A stretch of DNA of 64,000 nucleotides from Dromiciops gliroides (taxonomy: Eukaryota > Chordata > Mammalia > Microbiotheria > Microbiotheriidae), in the NCBI RefSeq assembly GCF_019393635.1, contig NC_057864.1, forward strand, positions 477,542,617 through 477,606,616. The letters are read 5' to 3'. Below, piece after piece: positions 4,201-63,235 of the stretch. A program made the position numbers and the translations under genes. Positions within the stretch are counted from its first letter, which is position 1, and each line of letters opens with the position of its first letter. The notes beneath the pieces were generated by a model. That model saw only the letters and a program-made list of their open reading frames with translations. It made no database searches and was not told the DNA's origin.

Positions 4201-7200
4201 TTCCTTTTTGTGAAAGGGTTGGGTTGGGGCTGACTGAAGCCCAGAGAGAGGTGCTGGAGGATGTCAGTGGGCAGGGCCAATCTTAACCAGAGGAGCGGTA
4301 GGCAGACACTGATGTGGTATGACCGAAGGCCTGGTGAAGACCCCCTGGGCCCCAGATATTTACACCATCTGCTCTGCTCTGCTGTTGCTTATTATCCTTT
4401 TGATGGGGGCTGGATTCCCCCCAAACACATGCACCTTCCTGGGTGAGGCCTCAGGCTGATACTCTAACAGCTACTCCTGGGATGGGGAGCATAAGGGTTA
4501 TCTCTCATTCATACTAGAGTGGAAAGGGCTGATGTCAAAGCCTTCTCCCAGAGCAGGGTTTGATGGTGGCGAGGCGAGAACAGGAAAGGCACAGGAACTT
4601 CTTTCATTCTGAGGGCAACAGAGCCCAGCCGGCCTATGCATCCAGCCTCCCCTCTGTCTGTCTCTTCCCCTCACCTTCTCCTTTTCCAGGCCTCATAGTG
4701 AGTCTCCATCAAGAAGGTCTCATCGACACAGTAGCTGTAGTTCTCCTAGCGCCTCCATATCTTCCAACTACAGCAGCTCCAAATCACCCAGCAGGTAGGC
4801 TGGCCAGCCTATAGCAGACCACAGCCATGCCAAGAGCATGGCAGATGGCACGTGGCCAGGCCCGTGGGCTGAGGTCAGGGGTTTGGGGCTTGGAAAATGG
4901 GGGTGAGGATGTTTTCTTTCCTTCTGAGTCCTCTGTGGCCCTCTGTGGAGGGCCTCAGTGCCTAGAATTTGGTCGGGGGGAGAGTTGGGAGATGGAGCAA
5001 TGGAGGGTTACAGGCAGCTCCATGATGACCTGCCCATGATGGGATCTTGGGTCAGTCCATCAGCCCATTCATCGAACCTTCCATCAGGCCCCCAGGGCTA
5101 AGTTCCCAATTCTTTGGGGGTGACAGGAGAAGAAGACTGGGGCTCTGCCATCAGGGAGCCCATGGTCTCATGGGAAAGGCATGGAGAAAGGTAGGGAGTA
5201 ATGCTAGGGAGTGGAAGCTAAGTGCTTGCTTGACTGGCTGAGTATACAGAGTTCTGGAAGAAGTCAGAGCAAGCAGAGATTGTTGGGAGCTGGAGGAGTC
5301 TGGGCAGACATCCTGGAAGAGGTGATGCCTAAGGGATCCAGCCCTCAATCTCTCTCTAAGGCAGAGAGGGGTGGTGCATGCTCAGAGAGGCTTGGGGCTC
5401 CAATTGGTTGTCCAAGACTGCCTCAGTGGAGGGAGAATGAAGTAGGAGGGTCCCACCCTGGCTCCCTCCATCCCTCCCCTTGCTACAGACTGAGCCCCAA
5501 GCCCAGAGACGATGGCCCAAAGGTCAGTAGCCAGCGGTCCAGCAGGAGCAGAACATCCTCTCCGTCGGGCCGCAGCCGATCGGGGTCTCCACACCAGAAT
5601 GGCCAGCGGAGCAGGCGTCCCAGCCAGGCCCGAGGCAGCCCATTGGACACACCACTGGATGTATGTACCCCTGGCTCTTGCCACCATTCACCTTCCCCTG
5701 TCCACCCACCTCCCCAATCTTTGGCAAAGGTCACTTCGAATTTATAGAAGGTCAGGTGGGGTCAAGCTCAGACCCTCCCTCACACCAAGTCTGTAGATGA
5801 ATCCCGTTCCTTGTGTGTGTATGTGTGTGTGTGTTGGGAATTAGGGGAGACTGCAGTCCATTGCTCCTCCCTCTCCCTCTCCCCAACCATCCTGTACTCT
5901 GACAAGGACCGATCATACCAGACCCCCTACTCCCCACAGTTCAACTAATTAGGTGGAAAGAGAAAATGGAGATCTTCCTAGATCTATGATTGGGCTGAAG
6001 ATGCACACCAGGGTGGTAGTAGAATAAGCTCCCTCCATTTGTGCCGGCGCTTTATCCTTCCTCAAGAGATTTTCCCATCCATTATCCCATTTGATATCTC
6101 ACCACCACCCAATGAAGAAGGCATGGAAAAGATTATTCTTATTTCATGGATGAAGAAACTGAGGTACAGCTAGTAAATGGAGGAAGGGCACACTTAAAGC
6201 TCAGAGTTCCTAACAGCCATATGTCCTTGTAACTTGAAAGTCCCAGTGACCAAGCCAGAGCTCCCTATTCCCTCTGCTACAAGAGTAAGACCCCCCAGGA
6301 GTTCCCTCCCCTGACTGGGAGTGGGGAGACACCCAAGGACCCCATCTAGAATGTGTAACATGGGCTATATTACTGGGAAGCAGATCAGGATGCCTTGGGA
6401 TCAAGAGTCATAGGTCTAGAGCTGGACAGGATCTCAGAGGTCACCTAATCCAAGCCCCTCATTTTACAGATGAAAAACCCAAGGCTTGGGGAAGAGAAAT
6501 GGCTCAAGAGACTAGGTCTTCTGCCCAATCTGTTAGTGTGTCATTCCCCCACTCCCCACCTCCTTTGTTTCCTGGAATCTCTGAATAGGAAATGCACATC
6601 TCTCTTTGATGATCTTAGAGCATTTGCTCTAAGAGGACATGGTTTAATTCCAGCTCCTAGCATTAGCCTTGGATAGTAATGGCAAAGAGGGGGTTTTCTT
6701 TATCCTTTGTCCCCAAAAGCAACTAGAGTGGTTCAACATGGTATCTCTGAGTCCACAAATCCCCATGCCTGACATTCATGCCCCAGCTCCAAGACTGAGT
6801 CCCCCTCAGCTGCACTGAGCACCCCTCCACACCCATCCCCAGTACTGCTCCCTATCTGTGACATTGAACCCCCATAGCGACACTGATTCCAGGCACTATT
6901 TGCCCCCAAAACTGAGATCCTCATGTCTAGGAGTGAGTCCCCTAGAACATTTCAAACCCCATGAAACTTTTGAGGGCTCAGCACAATTCTCACTCATTCT
7001 TTAAAGGCTCTGATCTCTGGGCCAATTTTTTTTCCTCTACCACCAATACAGCACTTAATTCATGAATGTCCACACTAAGTGCTTGATCCCAACTGGCACC
7101 CTTTTGCTTTGAAAGACCAACTTCCTCATCCACCCTACTTTTTTGTCTTTGTACCACACCCATCATCCAAGGAATCTCTGCCTTGAAGAGTGATTAGGGT

Positions 7201-13548: not shown

Positions 13549-16500
13549 CTGTCTCTTTTTCTCTCTTTCATATGATTTTTTGGTTCTATATGTTTTCAAC
13601 ATATTTTTTGAAAGCTAAAAGGCCATTTGTTTCTCCTTTCTTGTTTTTTTTTTGGGGGGGGGTTCCTTTCTTGCCCTTCCGTCCCTCCTACTAATTCATC
13701 TTTTTCCTTTTCCTTTCCTCCTTCCTTCCCCTCATGTATTCCTTCCTCCTCCCTTCTATATCTCCCTCCTTTCTTCCTCCCTTCTCTTCTTTCCTTCTCT
13801 TCCTTCCCTCTTCCTTTTTTGCTCTTTTTCTTCTCTTCTTTCCTTCCTTCTTTCTTTTCTGCTCTTTCCCTTCTCTTCCTTTCTTCCTTCTTTCCTTCTT
13901 CCTTGCCTGTCTCTCTCTTGCTCTTTTGTTGTTGTTAGAATGCATTTCTGTGTGGTTTTAGCCTCCTGACTCTGTATTTCCTGTTGTGAACAGTGCATTG
14001 TGTTGAGTCCATTGGATTTCCTCTGCTGCCTGATGTGGCGAGTAACCAAAATTCACCCAACCTGTGAAGCCATTCTTTCAGACTGGCCAGGTTGGGGGCT
14101 AGCTTGAGAAAGAAAGAGGAAGGAGTACATTGGTTTTGATCCCAGCTGCCCTGAACACAACTACAACCCTTTAGTGCTAAACTTTGGCACCAAGATTTTC
14201 AAGGAAGTTTCAGGATGACAGCCAGGAAGAAGAGAAATAATTCATCCTTCTTCTGTTATGAAAAGGGATCTTTCACAAAGAGACTCTAATGAATGAAATT
14301 TGCCCTTCTTTTTCCATCTACCCCAAGTCTCCATTTCCTTCCCCCTGTGGGCTTTGGCTGAGCTCCATTGAGTTAAAGTGCTAGTTGAACATCCCTCTAG
14401 GATAACATTTGAGGGGAAGCCTGGAACAAAATGGGCTTCTCCTCTCTCCTCCCCTTGGGCTTTCTTTGGGGCCTCAGAGCTAATGGCAGCCTGGGGCCAA
14501 TGATAGGACTCTGGGAAAGCAGCTATGGACTGCAGATGGGGGGCGGGGAGGATGCCAGGATAGCTCAGTAGTGCCTTCTGGAGATCCTCGGGGGTTGAAG
14601 GAACTCCCAAGAATGGAGCCTCTGCACCAGAAGTAGGGGCTGAGCCATGCAACATGGCTATTTTGTATGCACTGAATTTTAGTTAGTCTTGAGGGAGAGA
14701 AGCCTGGGTTTTGAGAGCTGCCTTGCCAAGGAAAATCCTCACAAAGATAAGAGCTGTCAAAGGTGGAATAGGCTCCTCCCCACCCTTTTTGCCGGAGGTC
14801 TCCAAGGAAAGGCTGGGTATGTGATGGGGGAGGGGAGATTCCTTTGTGGGTGTTGGTTGAATAAGATAAGTCCTGAATTCCCTCTCACCTCTAAAAGTTC
14901 TATGGGAAAATGGGCACCTGGGATTTCTAAAGTATAGTGGAGTCCAGCTCAACTAGAATGATCTGGATTCCTTCAAAGGAACATAGGGAACATAGAGGTC
15001 CCTTTCCCTGAGCTAGCTAAGTATCACCCTTAGAAGGCTGTGCCATAGCACCCAGTGTACAAGAGCTCAGGCCTCTGATCATCTCTCCTCCCACCCAAAG
15101 AAAGGCCCATTGGCTTCCTCTAGCAGACTTCCCATCCCATTGTCTCCTGAGGAAAGGAGAAGAACCTTCCTCCCCCTGGGTTTATTTGCATTTCCATTTA
15201 TGATCCTTCCTCGGGAATATAGATGAATGGGGGAGATACTTTGGGGGTAAAGGGAGGAGAGAAGAATTATAGACCCATTATTTCAGTAGTTTAAGGAAGG
15301 GCTTCTTAAACTTTTTCCACTTGAGACCCCTTTGCACTTGAGAAATTTTTATGCGACCCTTGGTATATATGTCTATAAAATAGGTACACGTACCCTTTTA
15401 CTGTTGCCAATTTTTGAGACCCCCCCCCCCACATTCAGTTACTCGACCCAAAGTGGGGTTTAGGGGATTCCTGGTGTATTGAATCCTCTCCATGGATGCA
15501 GATCAGCAACTGAATTTGTAATTTTATAGTCTTAGAGTTTTCCTGGGGGTCACTGCCTGGGGTCAGAGGGTAACTGACCTGCCTGATCTATCAACCAGCC
15601 CGTAGTGAGTGAGTGCTTACCTTCTACCTGGCGGCACTGAGCAGAGTCCTAGAGATACAAAGAAAATTCAAATACAGTCTCTGCTCTCAGGAGGTTTACA
15701 GTCTATTAGGGGAGGGCATTTATAAGCCCATAGAGCAAGTTTGTATCAAAGACAGACTGGGAACTCAAATATTCCTGACTCCAAGGCTACTTTTTCTCAA
15801 AGGAGAGCAAATTTGGGGGTGGGTGGGGATTAAAGGACTAAAATAGGGAGAGGGCTTTGCCTTGGTAAGATAGCTGGCACTCTATTCCCTTTGACCTCTT
15901 CCTCTGCTTCCCCCTCCCTTACAATTTCACCATCAAAGACCCTTCAATTAATTAGGCCATTCTCTCAAAGCACCAACAGCAGCTGACCTCCCCACACATT
16001 ACCTCCTTCTCCCAAGCTTCCAGGGACTTTTCAAGCTGAATGACACATACCAGACAAGACCCCACCCCAACCAAAGAAGAAAGTTTGGAGGGACCCACTG
16101 TGCCAACCAACCTCATCTCCCCCTCAACAGGCCTGAGATTGGATCAGACTTTTTTTTAAAGCAAAGGATTTTTTTTTTTTGCCTTTTTTGGTAATACAAA
16201 AATATTTGGGTATGAGTCATTCATTTTTTTTACTTTCTTCTCTTCCATCAGGATCTACCACTGAGGCTTTATCCCTGCCCTTCATTCTCTATGACTACAT
16301 CTCTTTCTACAGGCAGATGGAGCTAAAACACTCATGTTTTTATCAAGCTTTATGCTTTCTTTGACCTGCACACTCCCCCTTCCCCCACAAAAATAAAACC
16401 ACTCCCTACACAATTTCATTCAAGACTCATAAGGCAGGACAGACATGAATTGTCCCCATTTTGCAAACAGGGAGACTGAGGCTCAGTGAAGTTAGATCAT

Positions 16501-19500: not shown

Positions 19501-20669
19501 AATGCCACTTTTTTGGTAAGTGGACGTTAACCAAGAGGGACTTAAAAATCAGAATTTTTTTAAAAAAGAGAAAAAGAAAGACAGGATGAAGCTACTTACA
19601 GCTCAACAGCTCTCTGCAGGGCCAAAAAGAAAAAAAAAAGCAGTTTCCCAGGAGTTCAGAGACATATTTTATTTCAGTATCTATGACATTTGTGGTTTTT
19701 ATTTTTATTTTTGTTTTTTTTTCTTCCTTTTTCTGGTTCTGTTTTCAATTGAGTTCTCCCCAACCCTTCCCTGTCCCGCCCCTCCTCCCCCTTCCTTCCA
19801 CAGCCCTTTGCCATCTGTGTGTTGTTTGACCTCATCTCTTCATTATATAGCTCCATCTATATCTCTTGGTCTCTCTCCATACACGCTGTTCCCTTTAGCC
19901 CCACCTATGACCACCTTTTCTGTTTCTACCATCTCTTTGTGATATTCCTGTGTTGGTCCCCACCCCCTCCCTCCCTCCTCCCCCCCTTCCTTTCTTCCTT
20001 CTCCTCGCCCCCACCCTTTGGGCGGAAAGGTTCTTCGCCCTACTCTGGTCTCCCCCTTCTCCTCTCTTTCCCGCCCCCAATCGTTCTTTCATCACCTCTG
20101 CCCAACCCCCACCCCATCCTCAGCCTTCTCCCCACCGTTGTCCCCACCCACCTGATCTTCCCTTCTCCTCTCTTTCCGATCCGTTCCTTGGTGTTTTTGC
20201 ATGCGAAGAGACTTGCATGAGCTGCATTTATGGAGGCCCACCCAGAAGGTGTGATCAGGAAGGAAGGAAGGAAGGAAGGAAAAAAGGAAAGAAGGAAAGA
20301 AGGAAGGAAGGAAAGAAAGAAGGAAGGAAGGAAGGGGCAGGGCAGCAGGGTCTATGTAGTTTGCAGAATGCACCGTGCGTTGACGATGTGAGCGACAGCG
20401 CGTACCGGGAGGTTCTCTTTAAAAGCCCATCTCTCCTTCTCTCCTTTCCCCTCCTTCTCTCTCCCCCTCTGTCTCTCGTCTCCTCTCTCTTTCTCTGTGT
20501 CCCCTGTTCAGAGGCCCAACTCGCCCGAGGCCCGAGCCCACACCAAAGCGGAGCCCGCCCTGACCACACCGCCTCGGGGGAAAGAGGGTCGAAGCCCCAG
20601 ATCGGCTTCGCCGCAGCCACCGGCCAGGGGTGGCCGAGGCGGCACAGGAGGAGGAGGTTCGACCGGAGG

Positions 20670-20705
<36 letters not shown>

Positions 20706-23700
20706 GGGAGCGGGAGGAGGAGCAGGAGCAGGAGGAGGAGGAGGAGGCGCCTGCGGGAGCGTACCGGGAGAAGCCAAACACCGGCGGCGCTCGCGCTCCA
20801 CCACTTCGGCACCGCGTCGTAAAGGACGAAGGCGGCCCCGCGCCCCGGCCCCCAGGAGCTCCCCGCGATCGCTCAGCCGCGCCGGCTCCAGCAGCGACTC
20901 GGATGCGTCGGGCGCCTCCCATCAGCCCGGCCCGGAACCCAGCCAGGATCGGAGCCACTCCGCCCCCGGGAAAAAGTGAGAGCCCGCGGGCCTGCGGGGC
21001 GGTACTGAACTGGGGTCCGGGAGCCCGAGCTGGTGGCTGCTAACCTAGCCTTGACACCTAGAACCCCGCCCTAGCCCAGCCAGCCCCGACACCCAGCACC
21101 CTGGCCCGGCCCGGCCTGGCCCATGTGTAGACCCTCCAGGACCACTGCAAGGGACCTCAGAAGCCATCTGGACCAACCCTCCATTTTAAAGACGGGAAAA
21201 CCAAATCCTGGAGAGAAGTGACTTGCCCAAGGCCACACAGTTGAGATCCTAGACTTAGAGGTGGAGGGGCCCTCTAGTCCAAGACCCTCATTCTATTTTA
21301 TTTTATTTTTTGGTGAGGCAATTGGGGTTAAGTGACTTGCCCACGGTCACACAGATAGTAAGTGCCAAGTGTCAGGTCGGATTTGAACTCAGATCCTCCT
21401 TAATCCAGGGCCGGTGTTTTATCCACTGCGCCACCTAGCTGCCTCCTCGATTAGTTCCTTAATCCTCCTTCCTTCCCCCTCCCCTCCTAGCCTCCCTGTA
21501 TGATCCAAAGTCATTCTCCTTAGCCCTTAGCCTGGTTACACACTTTGCTTAGACGGATATTCAAATGAGGCCAGGTTTCTTAAGTACATCATGGTTGAAA
21601 GAAAGGAGATTGGAAGTCTAAAGGACTGGATAGGAATCCCAGCTCTTTGACTCACTACCGTGTGACCTTGAACAAATCACTGCACCTCAATGGGCCTCAG
21701 TTTCTCCCACTGTAAGATGAAGAGTCTGGCCTTAGTGGTCCCTAAGATCCTTTCTAGCTCTGGAGGGATCTTCTTGTGCTTTTAGATGAAGGGGGATGGG
21801 AATATACCGAGAAGGTTCAGACAGGACCCCAAATTAGTGACCTGGAGCATCCTATGCTTATATGTGAGGATCCCAGAAGTCGGAAGGTACCTGAAAAGCC
21901 ATGAATCCCACTCCCTTCCATTACAGCTGGGGAAACTGAGGCTGAACGAGACCCGGTAATGCTTCTGCAGTCACATTTTCCCAGGATCAAACAGATTTAG
22001 TTAGCCTTCCGCTGACCCAGTCTGTATCACTGAGTGATGTAATGGGTTTGGAATCAGAAGCCTGAAACTGGTTTCTAGCACCAAGACTTTTTATCTGTGT
22101 GACCCTGGCAATGTACTTGCCTTTGGTGGGCTTCCAGTTTCTCCTCTGCCACATGACCAAGTGCTTAAAGCCTGGACTGAGCTAAAGGCTGTGACTAGAA
22201 GCAATGGCCTAATGTCTGGAGCTAAAACCCCTCTGGCTCTCCTGGACAAGGCTCATGACCCCCCCCCAATCCTCCTCAGTTTGACAAAATGCCTTCCCCA
22301 GGTAGGCCTGGCTGCCATCCAAGCTTGGTGGTGGCACAGAGAGGGGGTACCCCTCCTAGGTCCCAGGCGCTGGACCTCCAGCTACTAGCCCTTCAAATCC
22401 TACCCTCCTACCCCCCCCCTTCAGGAGAGGATACTGATGGAAGCCACACTTGCTCCTCTATAGAAGAAAACCATAAGTTGGCAAGCCTCTGTCTGGTGGG
22501 GGCGGGGGAGTCAAACAGGGCAGCAGCCCCTGGCAGGCAGTGGGCACATAGACCCTCAGAGAAATCCCACAGAAAGGATCTGGCAGGGCCATGCTGAGGG
22601 TGCAGCAGACATGGCCACAGTCACAGGATGAGGTGGGAGTGTAGAGAAGGCAGCCCCAGAGCTTGGGGGCTTTGGATGTTGGAAGGTCTCTGCATCCCAG
22701 AGTCTGTGGGAAAGTATCCAGGATGAGAGAAGGAGCAAGGGGAAGCACAGTGGGTGGGAGGGGTAAAGGGAAAGAAGACTTGGAAATTCTAAGATCTGGC
22801 CCCGGGGCTGACAGTCCACCATCAGCTCCTGTTAATGTGAGCCTGTTCCGGTTTCAGAGAGAAGGAAGGTGATAACCGGATGAGGCACCCAGAGGGGGAA
22901 GCTACTAGGCCCCGGAGACGGTCCCGGAGCTACTCACCCATTCGAAAGAGGCGTCGGGACTCACCTAGCTTCATGGAGCCCAGGCGGATAACCAGGTAGG
23001 GAACCAAAGGCGGGGAAGAGGGGGTGGTCACTGACCCAGGAGGGCCCTGATCAAGGGTTTGGGTATCATGGCCACATCCATGGGCTCAATACAAAAGGGA
23101 TTTGGGGTATCTGACCTTGAGTGCTTGATCCTAGAAAATCAGAATGAAAAATTCTTCTGAATGCCTGAAAGCTGTGTAGAAAACGTTTTTGACCTCAAAA
23201 GACTCTTCTGGGGATAGGGGCTCATTGTTGGGTTCACCGACCAATGACAGGAACCAAGGCTCTGATGGAAATGGAAATTCAAGGTCAAGGTTGACAGCTC
23301 AGCGTTGGAGATTGGGGCTCTATGTCTAGGGGCTCCGAATAGGTGATGGAGGCTTAGTGTCAGATAAGGGCTCAGCGCCAGAGAGGATGACTCAATGTCA
23401 GGGATCGGGGTTCATTGTCAAGGATGGAAGCCCAGTATAAGCTCTGTGCTGAGAAAGAAGGTTGGGATGCTGGGGACTGAGGCTCAATGTCCAAGATAGG
23501 GGCTGAGTGTCAAGACTTAAGGCTCAGTGTTAACACTGATGGGTGGGGGCAGCTAGGTGTTGCAGTGGATAAAGCAGTGGTCCTGGATTCAGGAGGACCT
23601 GAGTTCAAATCCGTCCTCAGACCCTTGACACTCACTAGCTGTGTAACCTTGGGCAAGTCATTTAACCCCCACTGCCTTGCCAAAAACAAAACAAAACAAA

Positions 23701-29250: not shown

Positions 29251-30394
29251 CAAGAAGTTTATGCAGACAGTATTCTACTGAAGGGACAAGTATTGACTGA
29301 GCATTAGCCATCACTATGAACAGATCAGTAATTACAATTTCAGAATTGAGAGGGCACTTAGAGATGTAGGAATCTGGAAAGGTCTCATGGGGGAAGGGGA
29401 CAAGTGCATGGTCCCCAGGAAACTAGTTCAGGCATCCACACCTAGACAACAAGGTGGAGGTTAGGTGAGGAGGAGAATTCCCTAGGGAAGGGGAGGAATT
29501 CTTGGAAGACACTGGCTCCTTGGCCCCTTGGGAATACAATGATCTGATGTCTGTCTTAACCACACCTGGAGACTGTGTCCAGGGAATAGGAAAGGGGGAC
29601 ACCTTGTGTCTGGGGTCAAGGTGGTGGTTAGGTTTTTATTGGGCTTTTTGAGTCTCCTATAGCTTAATGAAGAAGAGTGGTCTGAAATGTCCCCTTCCGG
29701 TAGGAATGGGGACAAGGAATCCCTACCCCCTTCTCCAAACAAAGATTCAAGGCAGCTTCCCCCTTCCCTTTCCTTGTTCTCTGAGAGAGCAATCCAGCCC
29801 TCCAGAACACAGCAGCCCCACTTCCCCACTTTCTTATACTGCCTCACATACACCAGTTTCCTCCTCTCCTTTTCCCATCTCCCCACTGTAGTCAAGGACT
29901 GCATCCACCATTGCTAGGCAACAGGACGCTGGGCATTGTTACCTACCTGACTTCTTGGGCTGGACAGTTGCTCCAGGTGCAGCAGTGAGAGTGGTGGAAG
30001 CCCAGGCCAGGCTGAAGGTGGGGAGGGCTGAGAAACACAGATTACCTTCTTGGGTCAGGGCTTCCATAGTCGATGCAGGCAGATTGTCGCCCAGAGGGAG
30101 AACAATGAACGGGAAAAGGCTGACGATGCCGAGTTCTAACGGGAGGAGGCAGCAAGGACTTCAGGTGCTGACTTGGGATTCGGCTGGTTTAAGTCAGAGC
30201 AGTGCTGAGGGTGCGTGCACAGCTTCAGTGGCTTCAACATCAAAGTACATTTAAGAGCCGAGAGATGCCCAGGGGTCAGAGACTGGAAACGAGAGTGAGG
30301 GTTTCTTCTGTTCCCTCAACGCCTTCAAATAAAGGAGTATGACATTTGTCAAGTCTCTGAGGCAAATTAAATATACAGACTTGGGGGGGGGTGT

Positions 30395-30790
30395 CAGTGT
30401 AAGGGGAAGGGGCTCCCTGCCGGTCATGGAAACCAGGAATCAGTACTGGGGGAGGGGGGAGCTCAGTGTCAGGAATCTTCAAACAATATCAGTGTGGGGG
30501 CAGCTAGGTGGCGCAGTGGATAAAGCACCGGCCCTGGATTCAGGAGGAACTGGGTTCAAATCCGACCTTAGACCCTTGACACTTACTAGTCCTGTGACCC
30601 TGGGCAAATCACTTAACCCTCATTGCCCCCCCAAATAAAAACAATATCAGGGTGCCCCTTGCTAGGGATGACGTCTCGAGATCTGGGCTAAGAGAACCAT
30701 GTCTGGGATGGGGAATCGATGTCAGGAATTGGGGCTCGGTGTCAGGGATGGAGGACTCATTTCAGGGGAAGGAGGTTCGGTCGTGTGTAG
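30395..30790 (-). repeat. 20-bp-period degenerate tandem array (locus C, reverse orientation)
   Basis: Units such as TGTCAGGAATTGGGGCTCGG and TGTCAGGGATGGAGGACTCA on the + strand. Split by a WSINE1 at 30496-30635. Confidence 0.7.
30496..30635 (+). mobile_element. WSINE1-type SINE
   Basis: GGGGGCAGCTAGGTGGCGCAG start and a short A-rich tail. AACAATATCAG occurs on both sides as the target-site duplication, inside the 20-bp array. Confidence 0.93.
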
Positions 30791-37389: not shown

Positions 37390-37486
37390 GCCAGGGCCAG
37401 CCCAGCCCAGACACTCACTCAGTCCCAGAGCTCCAGGGGAGAGTTGTAGGTACTGAGCGTTACCCACCTACCGCCGAGAATTCAAC

Positions 37487-37895
37487 ATGACTGAGAGACG
37501 AGTTCCTTTCACCTTCCTCCGAAGCCCCAGCTGGGACCCCTTCAGGGACTGGTACCCAGCCAGCAGCCGCCTCTTTGACCAGTCCTTCGGGCTACCCCGC
37601 CTTCCAGAGGACTGGTACCAGTGGCCCGGCCACACCAGTTGGCCTGGCTATGTCCGGCTGCTGCCCAGCCCTGTGGCTGAACAGGTTCCTGCTGCTGCTG
37701 CTGCTGCTGCTGGGCCCCTGGGTCCCCCACCCCCTGCTGGCCAGGCCTATAGCCGGGCACTCAGCAGGCAGCTGAGCAGAGGAATATCCGAGATCCAACA
37801 CACTGCTGACCGATGGCGGGTGACCCTCGATGTCAACCACTTTGCCCCTGAGGAGTTGACTGTGAAGACCAAGGATGGCGTGGTAGAAATCACGG
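37487..37895 (+). CDS. HSPB1: HSPB1 exon 1 coding part
   Basis: From ATG ([19 protein letters not shown]) to the first base of a Gly codon in VVEITG, donor GTGAGC at 37896. Contains the N-terminal domain and the first half of the alpha-crystallin domain. A (GCT)7 run encodes Ala. Confidence 0.98.
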
Positions 37896-38803
37896 GTGAG
37901 CAGACATCACAGCCCCCTTGCCCCATTTCTTCGTTTTGCCCCTGGACGTTACTGTGTTCCCAGTGGAGCCCAGTTTGGGGGTGGGGTGGGGTGGGGTGAG
38001 GTAATAGCCCTGGCTATTGGGGGGGGGGGAGACGGAACAAGTATTCCTGAGGGAGAAAGCCTTCAGAGGGAGAAAACAGATAATGCCACCAGCCCCTGTC
38101 TGTCCTGGGATAGGGCGGGGCATGAGTGGCAGGGCTGGATACCCCAGATCCTGGGCCAGGAGTGCTCATCCTGGGGCAAGAGGTGATGGGTTAACCAGGG
38201 GACCTTAGTCAGAGGCCCCTCCCAGCATCCTTCCCTCCTACCCTCATCCTGAAGAAAATCAGCACACTCTGTCCTCTCTCCTAGCCTGGACTTGCAGAGA
38301 GAAAACATGTTTATTGTTGCTGCACATGAGAGAGGAAGGAAACTAGATGGGGCTTGGCTCAGAAACCTTCCCCCTGCCAATTGCCAGGCCCAAACTTCAG
38401 CCCCAGCTCCGACAGGTTGTAATGCCTCCCCCATTAAACTAGTAGAAGAGCTAGCGGACAAGCACTTATGAAGTGCCTACTATGTGCTGCCAAGCACTGA
38501 ACTTAAGCTCTGGGCATACAAGGGAAGGCAAAACTGTTCCTTTGCCTCTGAGCCCAAACATCTCCCTACCTCTGGAAGCTTCTGATCCTGGGCCACGGGG
38601 CCCCAGTGAAGCTCCCATCCCCAGCTCCAACCTGTCAACCCTAGAGGCCGGGTCTGCTTCCAGTTCTTTCTGTCATACCGAGGCTTCAGACAAAAGTCCT
38701 TGCCCCTCTCTAAAAGCTTCTCTGGCCTTTGAATGGCCACACACATCCCCCTCCCCCTTCAGGACAGTGGCAGAATGGGCAGTAAATTGGTAGATTGCCC
38801 CCC

Positions 38804-38850
<47 letters not shown>

Positions 38851-40735
38851 CCAGTCAAGAGAAGGGAATTCACAAATTATGGAAAACCACTGGATCATCA
38901 GCCAGAGGTCCTGAGTTCAAAAGCTTGGTTCTGCTATGTGCTGCGTAACCTCGGGAAGAGTAATTTCCTTTCTCTGGACTTCTATTTCCTCTTCTAGTAA
39001 ATGATGGTCTTTAAGGTCACCAGTCCTGTGATCTTCTGAGAGAACAGCTGCGGGGGAGGGGGGTGGTATTAGTGCGTATTATTCTATTAATTTGTTTCTC
39101 TCCTACCTCCCTCCAGGCAAACATGAGGAGAGACAGGATGAGCATGGATTCATCTCCAGATGTTTTACTAGGAAATATACGTGAGTATTGGGAGGGTGAG
39201 CTGGCCCTTGGGGAGAGGTCTCCAATTCCCAGTCATATCTCCTTTTTTTTTTCATTCCCCCCTATGCCTCTTCCCTCTCCCACACCTACCCCCTACAAAG
39301 ACCCACTCCAAACTGATGTCAGGGTGTGGTGGCAATTGTCTGGCCCTTAAATATCAACTCGAGCCTGATCCTTCATTCCTCTGCCCAGGAAGAAGGAAGG
39401 CTGCTTCTCAGCCCAAGGTTAGAGAGAAAGTATGGCACTGAACTTAAAGGTCAGAAAGACCTGAGTTCAAATCTCACCTTTGCCACTTTTTTATCTGTGT
39501 GACTCTGGAAAAGCTACTGGGGGGGGGGATTAAAAAAAATAGAAAAAACCCACATCGGGACAGCTAGGTGGCACAATGGATAAAGCACTGGCCCTGGATT
39601 CAGGAGGACTTGAGTTCAAATTCAGCATCAGACACTTGACACTTACTAGCTGTGTGACCCTGGGCAAGTCACTTAACCCTCATTGGCTCACAAAAAAAAA
39701 AAAAATAGAAAAAGCTACTGGACCCGAGTCTCATTTCATGAACAAGTGAACAAGAAAGGGCTGGGGCTAGATGCCCTTTAAGGTCCCTTTCAGCTGTAAA
39801 GCCATGGTCTAGATGAGTATAGATGGGTCCCTGGGATGGAGACAGAGGCTTAGCCTTAGAGACAGGGACTCAGCTTCCAAGACTGAAGGCTTATACTTGG
39901 TAATAGGAGCTCAGTGCTAGGGCTCAGAAACAACTACCACCCCCTTAAAAAAAAAAGAAAAAGAAAAGAAAACCACCATATTTTAAGAGTCTAGAAAGGC
40001 CGGGTGTCAGACTAGACAGAAAGCCAGCCTTGAGTCCAGAAGGACAGGGGTTCAAGTTCCCCCCAATACATCCTGGCTGTGTGACCCTGGGTAAGTCACT
40101 TAATCTCTCAATATCTTTAGGTAGCTCTCTAAAACTTATGGTTCAGAGAAGGGGTTAGCCTAAATTATTAGAAGGTGTTTCTTCACCTAGGAGTTTCTAT
40201 ACCATAGAAATCACAGGACCAGTCCCTATCCCTATATTAAGTGTCTTTGGTATAGAAAACACTCTTCGGGGACTAGAGAAAATATAAAGTTAAGAAGGGA
40301 CATGGGACAGCTGGATGGCACAGTGGACAAAGCACTGGCCTTGAATTCAGGAGGACCTGAGTTCAAATCTGACCTCAGACACTTGACATTTACTAGCTGT
40401 GTGACCCTGGGCAAGTCACTTAACCCTCATTGACCCGCAAAAAAAAAAAAAAAGGTACATGGCTCCTGCCCTACTAAGCTTCTGACAGACAAGCATCCCT
40501 CCAGTAGATTTGCATCTCAGACCTCTCTGTCCTTTCTCTCTTCAGCCTGCCCCCTGGTGTAGACGCCACTTCTGTTGTGTCCTCCTTGTCCCCTGATGGG
40601 ACACTGTCTGTGGAAGCTCCTCTGCCCAAGCCTGCCATCCAGTCTGCAGAAGTCACCATCCCGGTCACCTTTGAAACCCGTGCTGAGATTGGAGGTTCTG
40701 ATGCCAAGAAGTCAGAGGGGGAAGCCACCAAGTAG
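37487..40735 (+). CDS. HSPB1: HSPB1, heat shock protein beta-1 (Hsp27), complete, three exons
   Basis: A small heat-shock protein: an ATP-independent chaperone that forms large oligomers, protects actin and is regulated by MAPKAPK2 phosphorylation. Join 37487-37895, 39117-39180 and 40546-40735 for 220 residues (human 205). Visible: WDPF at residues 16-19; phosphosite contexts LRSPS15, S93 and S97 (equivalent to human S15, S78, S82); alpha-crystallin domain from about residue 100; the conserved Cys (C152, human C137) in SRCFTRKY; and the C-terminal IPV motif in VTIPVTFE. The extra 15 residues come from a Pro/Gly-rich insertion with seven Ala after residue 65. Splice sites are GT-AG and all joins keep frame. 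The start matches the human MTERRVPF. Confidence 0.98.
37896..39116 (+). other. HSPB1: HSPB1 intron 1
   Basis: Mostly unique. An L2/CORE-type fragment lies at about 38440-38560 and a (CA)n microsatellite at 38804-38847. No alternative exon was recognised. Confidence 0.7.
38804..38847 (+). repeat. (CA)n microsatellite
   Basis: About 22 uninterrupted CA units in HSPB1 intron 1; likely polymorphic. Confidence 0.97.
39117..39180 (+). CDS. HSPB1: HSPB1 exon 2
   Basis: A 64-nt exon reading [20 protein letters not shown] with split codons at both ends. Acceptor CCCTCCAG, donor GTGAGT. Carries the conserved Cys and the Arg equivalent to human R140. Confidence 0.98.
39557..39706 (+). mobile_element. 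WSINE1-type SINE
   Basis: GACAGCTAGGTGGCACAATGG start, A-rich tail. AAAAGCTACTGG occurs right after the tail and 37 bp before the element, so the 5' junction carries extra G- and A-rich sequence. Confidence 0.92.
39815..39930 (-). repeat. 20-bp-period degenerate tandem array (locus D, reverse, short)
   Basis: Units such as CCTTAGAGACAGGGACTCAG and a 41-bp double unit ending AGGAGCTCAG. The weakest of the six arrays. Confidence 0.55.
40305..40453 (+). mobile_element. WSINE1-type SINE
   Basis: GACAGCTGGATGGCACAGTGG start, pure A tail, and ACATGG duplicated at the flanks. Confidence 0.92.
40546..40735 (+). CDS. HSPB1: HSPB1 exon 3 coding part
   Basis: Acceptor CTCTTCAG. Reads [19 protein letters not shown], the end of the alpha-crystallin domain, then [15 protein letters not shown] and ends EGEATK with TAG at 40733-40735. 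The IPV motif is the C-terminal oligomerisation contact of small heat-shock proteins. Confidence 0.98.
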
Positions 40736-56804: not shown

Positions 56805-57690
56805 GGATGCCCTATTCCAGCACAGAGAGACCCTCACCCTTGGTACTTAACCTGCACACTTCTCCCTAGCACTGAACTCTCCATCCTTTCATTGAGCTGC
56901 CCATCCTTAGCAAGTCCCTCTAGGGTCATAGATTCAGAGCTCAAATGGATGTCAGAGGCCATCAGGTACAACTTCCTGCCCTCTCCCCATTTTCCTGAGG
57001 AGGAACCAAAGGCCAAGATAATGAAGTGATTTTTTCCAAGGTCATGAAAGAAATAAATTGCAGAGTAAAGATTCAAACTCACGTCCCTTGCCTTTTCACC
57101 ATACTCTCCTGCTTCCCATGTCTCACTCCCAAGCTTACAAACCATCACTAAGTTCCCATTCTAAGCCCTGAGCCCCAAGCCCCCCCCCACCAATCCCACA
57201 ACCCCTAGACTGAGCTTCCATCTCTAGCACTGAACACATCCCTCCACCACTGAGCCCCCTTCCCCATTTCTGATATTTCATGCTACCCTTGACCCTGAGC
57301 TCCCCTTGCTCTGCACTAAGCTCCCATTTGCATCACTGAACTTTTGCCCTTGTTATAGAGACCTAGTTCTGGGCACTGAACTCCACTTCTAAACATTGAT
57401 TCTCTAACCCTGGCACTGAACTCTTTTCTCTGGGACTGAGTTCTCCCTCACACTGAATCCTGATCCCTACAATTATGCCCACATTCCTGGTGCAGAGTCC
57501 TCATTCCTGATGCCAAGTTCTCCCTCACTATCACTGAGCCCACACCAGCAACACTAGCCCTTCATCTCTGACATCGAATAGTCTTTCTTCTCTCCCAACC
57601 ACTGAACTCCTATCCCTCCCCAATAATGGGTTCCCATCCCTGATGACAAGACTACATCCCTGTAGTATTGAGGTCCCATTGCCAATGGAG
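56805..57690 (+). repeat. 20-bp-period degenerate tandem array (locus E, best phased)
   Basis: Unit starts at 57210, 57230 and 57250, and again at 57316 and 57336, then 57376, 57396, 57416 and 57436, are exactly 20 bp or a multiple apart. Examples: CTGAGCTTCCATCTCTAGCA, CTAAGCTCCCATTTGCATCA, CTGAACTCTTTTCTCTGGGA. A MIR-type SINE (about 56925-57115) lies within the array. Units diverge strongly while the period holds. Confidence 0.8.
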
Positions 57691-58225
57691 AACCCCAACC
57701 ACTGTTCCCAATGATCTCTTATTGCCAAAAGTGATGTTCTTTTTCCAGTTCTCAGCTTTGCCACCTTTCTGAAGCATTTCAAATGGTTGACCACACTCTC
57801 CTCCTGAATACTCTTTCTCCCCTTAAAGAAATTTTATTACATAATATTATTATTTAAATTCATGTTATTATTTAATATTTAAATTATTTCATTAATCTGA
57901 ATGATTAAGTTTAATTATTTATTTAATGAGCAACAAAGCACAATATTTCAAAAGATAAAGAACAAAAAAGAGGATTGTATATGAAAAGAATTATATATGA
58001 ATTTTTACTTTGTATTGTTTGGGGTTTTTTAAAGTATAATTTTAGATTTAAGGAGCTATTAACCAAATTGCCATGTTTGCATCTTATTCTGAACTTTTAT
58101 TTTCTTTCTATGTTTTAAATGTCATATTGATGTTATTTTCTTTCTTCTTTTTCTCATCTCTATCACTACCTACTAACTCATTTCCTATGCCCCAAATAGA
58201 AGTCTTACCTTGTAATAAATAAGTA

Positions 58226-61188: not shown

Positions 61189-61504
61189 GAAAAGGGAGGT
61201 GGACACCTGTTTGCCCAGGGCCTTAAAAGTCAAACTGAAGAGTTTGTCCTAGCTGAAGGGAGTCTCTGAAAGCTGATGAAGTGGTTAGACCTGTGCCTTA
61301 GGAATATTATTTTAGCAGCAGTGTGGATGATGGTTTGGGAAGGGGAAGACTGGAAATAGGGAGACCAAGTCAAAGCTACCTTAGTAGTTCAGGTGAAAGG
61401 TGATGAGAACCTGAATTATAACATTGTTGTAGGGGGTGGAAAGAAGGGGACGGAAGTTATTCTCAGCCCCTGTCTCTAATAATGATCCTTCATTTTTAAG
61501 TCAG

Positions 61505-62530
61505 AGCCTGAAATAGCCTTCATCCCTAAGCAATGAGCATCCCATGTACCATATCATTAACCCGGAATCTACCCCTCTGACGCTGAGTCCCTGTTTGTGA
61601 CTTTGAGCTCCTATCCCTAAGACTGGCACCCTTACTGAGCTCCCATCCCAAGCAATGTGCCACTGAGGCACTCATCTCTGTCCATTAATCTATCACAAGA
61701 ACTAGCTCCCTTTCTCTGCACTATGCTCCCATACCGTTAACCAAGCCCTCAGTCTTGACAATGAACTCACCTCCCTACTATTTTTTTTTTGCAGGCAATG
61801 GGGGTTAAGTGAACTCAGGTCCTCCTGAATCCAGAGCCAGTGCTTTAACCACTGTGCCATCTAGCTGCCCTCACCTCCCTACTATTAAGCCCCATTCATG
61901 TCCCGAGACTCATTCATTCCCTCTCCTGAACATAACCAGCAGGTCCCCATCCTTGATGTTGAGCCCTCATCGTCAGCACTGAGTGCTCCACCCCACCCCC
62001 ACCAGACAGTGAGTCTCCATCTCTGATATTGAGTTTCCATTCCCATAACTAGACTCTATCCCTGACACTGAACTCCCATCCTTGGCAGTGGGCCCTGACT
62101 CTCACTGTGCTTCCATCCCTGTAATTCAGACCCCCTCCTGAGAAATGTGCACCTTCCACTGACATTGATTTACTTAATAATAGGTTATTTGAGGGGAAAT
62201 AAATTGATTTGACAGCAATCTCACATCTCTAGCATTGAGTTCTCTTCCCCAATTCTGGGTCCCCTTTTCAGATTCTGAGCCCATGTCTCTGAGAGCCCCA
62301 GCACAAAGTCCCCACTCCATGACCTACTCACTGGTCCTCAGCACAGATCACTCAAGTCCCCCTCCACAGCAATAAATCAGCATCCCTGCAATGGAGTCCC
62401 CATTCCCAGCACTGAGCCCCATTCTCTGCTTTTGATCTCTTATCTCTGACACTGAGCCGCTATCACCTGGTGCTGGATTAGTGTCCATCCCTGACATCAT
62501 ACCTCCATGACTGTCACTGAGACTATCACT
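61505..62530 (+). repeat. 20-bp-period degenerate tandem array (locus F, longest)
   Basis: Units such as TTGAGCTCCTATCCCTAAGA, CTGAACTCCCATCCTTGGCA, TTGATCTCTTATCTCTGACA and CTGAGCCCCATTCTCTGCTT are mostly 20 bp. Irregular stretches occur (62170-62230 is AT-rich). It holds an internally deleted WSINE1 at 61783-61869. Confidence 0.8.
61783..61869 (-). mobile_element. WSINE1-type SINE, reverse, internally deleted
   Basis: Only 87 bp. The middle part with the TGTGACC...CTAGCTG block is missing, but a perfect 17-bp duplication CTCACCTCCCTACTATT flanks it. The deletion either followed insertion or came from a shortened source RNA. Confidence 0.92.
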
Positions 62531-62534
62531 TGAT

Positions 62535-63235
62535 TCCACTTGCATCTCCCCATCCCCGTGGCTGACTTCCTTGTCACTAAGGCCAGGGGAGAAAGCACTG
62601 AGTCAGTCTTTCTTGCCCTGAATCTTCATTCTGTGTTTAATCCACTTAGTGATCCAGAGAAATTCTTGTCCACATTTTCAGAGCCTCAGGGCTAGCCCCT
62701 CCCCAACACCCTCACCCCCTCCTCTTCTGCACTTAGACCTTATTTGTGGTTTCACTGGCTGCACTTTCAGCATTTCCCTGCTGGGAAGTCATCCGTCTGT
62801 AAGGGCAAGATATTTCTGGGTTAATCGATTTTTCTCTGATGCCATGTCCCTTCACCCTAATGGTTATGATGAATGGAGATGGTTACCAAAATCCAGGAAC
62901 CCAAAGTCCTGGCTGTCTGACAAGCAGGGGGAGCCTGGAGGGACTGTTGGCATAGGATGGGATTTGGTTTGGAGAGGAGAGGAGGCTGGAGCTTGGAGTA
63001 TATTCAGAATGTGAAGGACAGCCATCAAAGAAAGAGACAAAACATCCTCCCTATCGGGGCACTGGGTCTTCCAAAGGTGCCCATCTGAGCGAAGCTTTGT
63101 GCTTTCCCATGGCCTCCCTCAGTCTCAAACTCATCCCATTCAAGAAGTGACTCCTGACTGACCATTGACCTGGTCATTCACCGGGTCTATTTGGCCTTAG
63201 CTCCTGACTGTTAGGGATAACTGAGGCAAGGTTTA
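62535..63235. other. Unique intergenic stretch
   Basis: No mobile element or gene was recognised. The open frame across 62649-63014 has no protein-family character I can name. Confidence 0.45.

Follow-up and report, generated by a model that had tools for sequence, protein, structure and literature searches.

How one minisatellite unit comes to occupy many separate sites is, in our judgement, poorly understood. The question is raised by a stretch of 64,000 nucleotides of the Dromiciops gliroides genome (C4:477542617-477606616; hereafter the window), in which six degenerate arrays had been predicted from the letters alone to share one approximate 20-bp unit, three in each orientation, and to have arisen by spreading, perhaps with a carrier element, rather than by independent slippage.

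The 20-bp unit and its arrays in the window

We scored each array with a cyclic HMM of period 20 that had been trained on the five others, starting from the originally proposed unit. All six held-out arrays (24.8-223 nats) scored well above shuffled sequence (maxima of 8.4-25) and above column-permuted profiles (maxima of 7.2-42), and the predicted sharing of one unit, with three arrays in each orientation, was borne out (A, E and F on the plus strand; B, C and D on the minus strand). Random-start profiles learnt on B, E or F alone converged on this unit too, agreeing with it at 18, 18 and 19 of 20 positions, respectively. The consensus common to the six arrays is CTGAGCYCCCATCCC(T/C)(G/A)ACA, to which the window units have a mean identity of 0.66 (n=107). 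The arrays total 3.0 kb as spans that include inserts, with borders taken from the HMM:

6758..6942, plus strand: array A, 10 units including partial ones; held-out profile 42.1 nats against a shuffle maximum of 11.2
23208..23532, minus strand: array B, 18 units including partial ones; 104.9 nats against 14.2
30376-30476 and 30650-30781, minus strand: array C; 64.1 nats against 9.9
30503-30620: tRNA-type SINE separating the two segments of array C
39825..39922, minus strand: array D, 6 units including partial ones; 24.8 nats against 8.4
56810-56912 and 57142-57757, plus strand: array E; 188.0 nats against 25.0, lag-20 z 7.0
56929-57105: MIR-like SINE separating the two segments of array E
61462-61782, 61943-62168 and 62210-62521, plus strand: array F; 223.2 nats against 19.4, lag-20 z 7.0
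61810-61865: SINE fragment in the first gap of array F

No 200-bp tile outside these six passed the shuffled and column-permuted controls by the margin used, and extra stretches that came from an uncontrolled posterior scan of the window failed those controls. Weak candidates found with an 80-position model (window 14607-14643, E 0.022; L026:8478-8526, E 0.0048; L027:719-762, E 0.033) are not counted here. Minisatellites have tandem units of roughly 10-60 bp, a range into which the 20-bp family falls.

The period had been described as strict, with an autocorrelation peak to be expected at 20 bp. Lag 20 is indeed the top lag for arrays B (z 6.1), D (2.7), E and F, whereas array C, with z 3.0 at lag 20, peaks at 46 and 40, and array A is weak (z just 1.8), its peaks lying at other lags. 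Likewise, the unit length stays at 20 but the register is lost: in the 264-kb region around the window that is described below, the 274 internal units have 136 indel events among them, or about one per two units. At its default threshold TRF reported a single 20-bp array, 30699-30767, which is a piece of array C; families of this kind may therefore be under-counted, only one of the six window arrays having been caught.

The window is dense in SINEs, which we take to be of CORE type, as fits a marsupial; profile matches, which overlap one another, number 58 for the tRNA type and 82 for the MIR-like type. AACAATATCAG is present at both ends of the SINE inside array C. Neither of two SINE-based sources for the unit held up. 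When the 3' tail of the SINEs was considered, one copy scored 27, a value equalled by 6 of 500 shuffled units and lying within the 99% point of random window pieces (30), and against the two SINE consensuses the unit did no better than 36-213 of its 500 shuffled versions. Array D lies between exons 2 and 3 of an HSPB1-like plus-strand gene at 37457-40735: HSP20 domain matches mark its first and last exon (37457-37999, E 3.8e-7; 40508-40735, E 5.8e-6), and short motifs put the middle one near 39.13 kb. For the serine-rich frames near 20-26 kb we assume an SRRM3-like identity, the SRRM_C match to them being sub-threshold (19.4 bits against a cutoff of 27). Within a long arginine/serine-rich open frame, 20665-20746 holds 13.7 copies of GGAGCA, a repeat that is probably coding, in the SRRM3-like gene. 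Neither an Rfam scan nor a tRNA scan matched anything in the window.

Extent of the family and history of its units

The assembly searched comprises 3.30 Gb in 17 contigs. A genome-wide excess over control had been anticipated, and the outcome depended on the pattern used: the single 20-mer with two mismatches showed none (122 matches against 123 for the reversed pattern), whereas a 35-place, two-unit pattern with two mismatches gave 34 matches against 0 in the control, all of them on C3 and C4. Among 13 stretches examined around listed 35-place matches, 11 hold arrays and two (L045 and L046) do not. The 20-mer with one mismatch gave 5 matches against 2 in the control, and the loci reached in this way have arrays in L029 (C1), L031 (C3) and L032/L033 (one C4 array), with none in L030 (C2). 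Ten loci served as incidental controls, with tile scores of 1.2-4.7 for L002-L008, 10.5 for L030, 11.9 for L045 and 7.3 for L046.

Within the 264 kb that comprise the window and 100 kb on either side of it, 16 arrays exceed the score cut used, divided evenly between the two orientations (8 each). All of these are confined to 155 kb (C4:477.450-477.605 Mb) except one, a 69-bp scrap at 477.685. Together with 14 arrays elsewhere, the family thus has at least 30 arrays on C1, C3 and C4, and one unit occurs at many unlinked loci. The family is dispersed, as had been proposed, but it is clustered rather than evenly spread over the genome. Array-level matches concentrate in C3:594-618 Mb and C4:475.9-477.6 Mb.

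If arrays had grown independently, neighbouring units might be expected to resemble one another more than they resemble units elsewhere; adjacent units in the window have an identity of 0.521+-0.012 (98 pairs) against 0.515 between arrays (4722 pairs). Among 28 segments with at least eight units, similarity between neighbours stands out in L031 (z 5.4), followed by L013:5595 (2.7), L035 (2.4) and L012:3336 (2.1), so that there is little such signal outside L031. Base frequencies differ between arrays when all are taken (total z 5.5, 365 units); without L031 and L032 the total z falls to 1.8 (301 units), with position 19 alone at z 4.3, and most arrays have a near-identical consensus. Divergence, with positions 16-18 left out, is uniform at 30.3% in the 16 of 23 cluster segments that have enough units for the test (chi2 8.2, 15 df, p=0.92). 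This uniformity weakens when the test takes in each of the 23 segments from C4:475.9-477.7 Mb (p 0.071), may in part be an effect of the detection limit, and does not extend to all 30 tested segments, which are heterogeneous (p 1e-11; C3:594 stands at 12.9%). The equal identity within and between arrays, together with the common divergence of the cluster, points to a fast spread of near-identical units that then decayed independently. Taken together, these patterns suggest that the cluster arrays go back to one fast spread followed by decay with loss of CpG, and they favour spreading over independent slippage, as the original prediction had it. Order-preserving duplication of arrays was not convincing: over 325 pairs, z averaged 0.26 and reached 4.3 at most.

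The loss of CpG is seen at unit positions 16-17, which read TG in 103, CA in 57, TA in 48 and CG in only 4 of 272 units of the cluster and L029; in the window, CG was observed 3 times against 16.2 expected, of 113. This pattern is what an ancestral methylated CpG would leave behind, and the founding unit would accordingly have been about CTGAGCYCCCATCCC[CG]ACA, its CpG having decayed to TG or CA. Substitutions in the units comprise 471 transitions and 244 transversions. Array units are off the consensus at 33.6% of positions (30.6% without positions 16-18), more than the MIR-like copy in array E (27.9%), the tRNA-type copy in array C (13.1%) or the SINEs of the window at large (medians near 19%), which indicates that the arrays are older than the SINE insertions in C and E. 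For one SINE family of marsupials, WSINE1, the accessible text of a published study places the origin at around 73 million years ago (PMC3403934). Indels per substitution come to about 0.05-0.06 in the arrays, as placed by simulation, and to about 0.14 in window SINE copies, or about 0.09 after recurrent indels are discounted; the two values were obtained with unlike alignment methods, and SINE subfamilies confound the comparison.

Some of the C3 arrays were renewed later and contain younger, more homogeneous stretches. In L031, 17.6 copies with 87% matches are embedded in older units, and higher-order periods are present in L034 (78 bp) and L035 (39/98 bp). For the founding unit, the G-rich strand has predicted G4 potential (mean G4Hunter score 1.4-1.75); the L031 core scores 1.46 and the decayed cluster arrays 0.3-0.9. 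This G4 potential may be linked to the turnover of the arrays.

A segment that recurs 3' of part of the arrays

A carrier had been proposed to account for the dispersal, and the flanks of the arrays were accordingly compared. Pairwise searches revealed none: 38 flanks of 600 bp gave 8 matches against 11.3 per random set (3 sets), these 8 consisting of 6 between neighbours that share one stretch and one pair at E 0.0015 and 0.0029. With 60 flanks there were 22 matches, and the five pairs inspected comprised CA/TG repeats, a presumed SINE tail and a weak similarity (E 0.005) between flanks on opposite sides of two arrays, the 5' flank at L044:716-860 and the 3' flank at L013:5595-5924. Because pairwise searches have little power at 30% divergence, we used a joint motif search, which recovered an invented 30-mer planted at 31% divergence as a positive control.

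With the C-rich strand taken as sense, this search indicated that a segment of about 50 bp recurs in fixed orientation 3' of part of the arrays, with no enrichment on the 5' side. The LLR for 3' flanks was 132 against 103+-6 in 10 shuffles at 30 bp and 96.5 against 72+-4 at 20 bp; for 5' flanks it was 100 against 104+-5 and 80.7 against 74+-4 (shuffle maximum 80.5). Similarly, when 40 sets of random genomic pieces were run at widths of 22 and 30 bp, none attained the 3' score, whereas the 5' score was reached in 12 and 22 of them. The tail core reads about GAGGGCTCAGAAGAAATCCTTGTCCACATTTTCAGAGCC, with conservation from about -10 to +40 that fades after about +40; the way in which sites were selected inflates its strength within the core. 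The proposed carrier thus has some support from a 3' flank common to part of the arrays, but none from a common 5' flank. The sites in the window, with p values from the motif trained outside the window, leave-one-out E values and p values from a model of array-free copies (see below), are as follows:

6974..7003, plus strand: candidate tail core by array A (weak); p=0.007, E 0.063, array-free-copy p 0.07
23135..23164, minus strand: tail core by array B; p=0.0009, E 0.10, array-free-copy p 0.054
30286..30315, minus strand: tail core by array C; p=0.010, E 2.9e-5, array-free-copy p 0.003
62649..62678, plus strand: tail core 127 bp past array F, beyond the 110 bp covered by the outside-trained motif test; E 1.9e-5, array-free-copy p 0.0009

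Array D has no convincing tail (best p 0.12 in held-out scoring), and the site proposed by EM for array E (11.0) is unsupported by held-out scoring, whose best p of 0.067 falls at another offset.

Twelve train/test splits were made in all, with masked flanks. A motif from the 23 3' flanks outside the window performed well on the six window arrays (Fisher p 9.4e-5 at 22 bp, 0.012 at 30 bp), four 3' half-splits with 13-15 training flanks mostly failed (p 0.97, 0.55, 0.045 and 0.94), and six 5' splits gave p 0.083-1. Eleven array-side sites were chosen by eye from the joint EM list; three others (array E, score 11.0; L034, 13.0; L043, 13.5) were left out although their scores equalled or exceeded those of certain chosen ones. 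Models built from the sites of one group and scored on the other put four of the six window arrays and seven of the 24 outside it at p<0.01 per 150 bp, the sites having been chosen jointly.

The tail also occurs without an array, at L014:2720-2770 and L028:7449-7500 (leave-one-out E 4e-7 and 7e-6), with no unit decoded within 260 bp of either; these copies may belong to an older dispersed element. In leave-one-out scoring of all 13 sites, seven reached E<1e-3 (5 of the 11 beside arrays and both array-free copies) and six lay between 0.06 and 1.1. A model of the array-free copies, which is not fully independent as these were first found with the array-flank model, picked out five 3' flanks of the 30 at p<0.01 (Fisher combined p 7.5e-7), including L043, which is outside the 13 sites, and 0 of 30 both for 5' flanks and for the wrong strand. 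The full tail model gave a further match (E 0.0074) in L012, where it follows an internal segment of an array immediately, and a weak one away from arrays (window 4883-4941, minus strand, E 0.028). The distance between array and tail varies from 11 to 127 bp, and a fixed unit phase at the junction is unsupported (10 arrays, Rayleigh p 0.34). In Helitron-like elements with a tandem array, a 3' hairpin lies near the end; no common hairpin was found in the tail (typed consensus z -1.3; z -3.0 to 0.1 for the 6 of 13 copies folded).

How the arrays may have spread

The reading that we favour, to which we assign a probability of roughly 0.55 on the sequence patterns described above, is that array and 3' tail made up a composite repeat that spread copy-wise in a short burst. 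Such an element would have entered many sites in the neighbourhood at a time when its units had scarcely diverged from one another. Its copies would begin at varying points in the array, through 5'-truncated retroposition or some other one-ended copying, which would leave the 5' sides different. Most arrays would then have been frozen, decaying like ordinary methylated DNA, and slippage or unequal exchange would have gone on enlarging a few C3 arrays. One-ended copying would be expected to give copies that agree on the 3' side and differ on the 5' side, that lie in both orientations and that arose in a burst, and it is the 3' motif, not the 5', that exceeds all 40 random sets, the tail being firm in few arrays. 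Against this reading, most arrays, D and E among them, have no convincing tail (at 30% divergence absence looks the same as decay), and the variable array-tail distance and unfixed junction phase run counter to a simple fixed element. We rate a strict, retroposon-like form of the element below the composite reading. Rather doubtful, too, is the full scenario of an extinct copy-and-paste element, with a G-rich 20-bp minisatellite and a short constant 3' tail as its body, whose insertions planted ready-made arrays, which seeded the cluster in one burst before most of the window SINEs and reached C1 and C3, some arrays being renewed since.

Two other routes we consider unlikely, and about equally so. 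If a dispersed old element had carried one or two 20-mers beside its tail, with each insertion expanding by slippage, then tails without arrays would be natural, the C3 arrays, renewed locally with array-specific units and higher-order periods, would be instances of the process, and human TE-derived minisatellites enlarged by local duplication, as the accessible text of PMC3389668 describes them, would be a precedent. Independent later expansion would, however, have fixed different variants, unlike the cluster arrays, which have little neighbour similarity and whose base frequencies, with L031 and L032 left out and apart from position 19, differ little; and no unit was decoded within 260 bp of the array-free tails. 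Alternatively, template switching at nearby breaks may have inserted copies of pieces of a homogeneous G-rich array, or such pieces may have returned to the chromosome from circular DNA, with the tail as an occasional fellow-traveller. Spread of this carrier-free kind would account for the lack of a 5' partner, the unfixed junction phase and the tight clustering of 15 of the 16 arrays, and it accords with the predicted G4 potential of the founding unit, the G4-forming CEB1 being known to drive rearrangement in yeast (PMC3486850, in the part accessible). It does not lead one to expect a tail that recurs on one side, in one orientation and on more than one chromosome, or one that occurs without arrays.

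Selection on a 20-bp spacing, for instance in a nucleosome-positioning or protein-binding array, is very improbable. The apparently lower number of indels per substitution in the arrays than in SINE copies would agree with it, subject to the confounding noted above, but one indel per two units persists, the decay spectrum is ordinary and accompanied by CpG loss, and arrays C, E and F are interrupted by SINEs. We infer no present function for the family and see no evidence for a role of two helical turns.

Among titles and opening lines of abstracts in the open-library literature, we found no prior description of the 20-bp repeat. Dispersed and TE-linked minisatellites are already known kinds, and the present family is a low-copy, old, dispersed minisatellite family. 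It resembles MSR1 of human chromosome 19, whose numerous distinct clusters occupy promoters and introns and are densest in one region; it differs in that the MSR1 unit is 36-38 bp, that a shared 3' flank is unmentioned in the accessible part of the MSR1 report, and that MSR1 copy number affects expression (PMC4725990), the 20-bp family being known from sequence alone. Like the human TE-derived tandem repeats of PMC3389668, it may be linked to a dispersed element, with enlargement by local duplication; those repeats, as far as the accessible text goes, expand over time by local duplication once started, whereas the cluster arrays seem to have been amplified no later than their spread. CEB1 and CEB25 likewise have GC-rich units with G4 potential (only predicted here, for the founding unit), but in the part of PMC3486850 available they are studied as single loci. 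The marsupial CORE-SINEs WSINE1 and MIR3/THER-2 (PMC3403934, accessible part) are similarly dispersed, old and found in both orientations, to judge the last from the window SINEs, whereas the 20-bp unit has no clear likeness to those SINEs, and the SINEs inside arrays are less diverged. What one genome displays here is a series of stages, from near-synchronous seeding through neutral-looking decay with a CpG clock and age-bounding SINE insertions to renewal elsewhere, and the one-sided tail offers a handle on the question of whether some copied element had tandem arrays within it as it moved.

Two further tandem structures lie close to arrays of the family. At L031:378-697, some 700 bp away from the C3:618 array, lies another minisatellite, with 33/64-bp periods and unrelated to the family, and L032:2278-2486 is a 104-bp tandem duplication with 82% matches near the C4:476.18 array. 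The array-bearing loci examined have 43-58% G+C.
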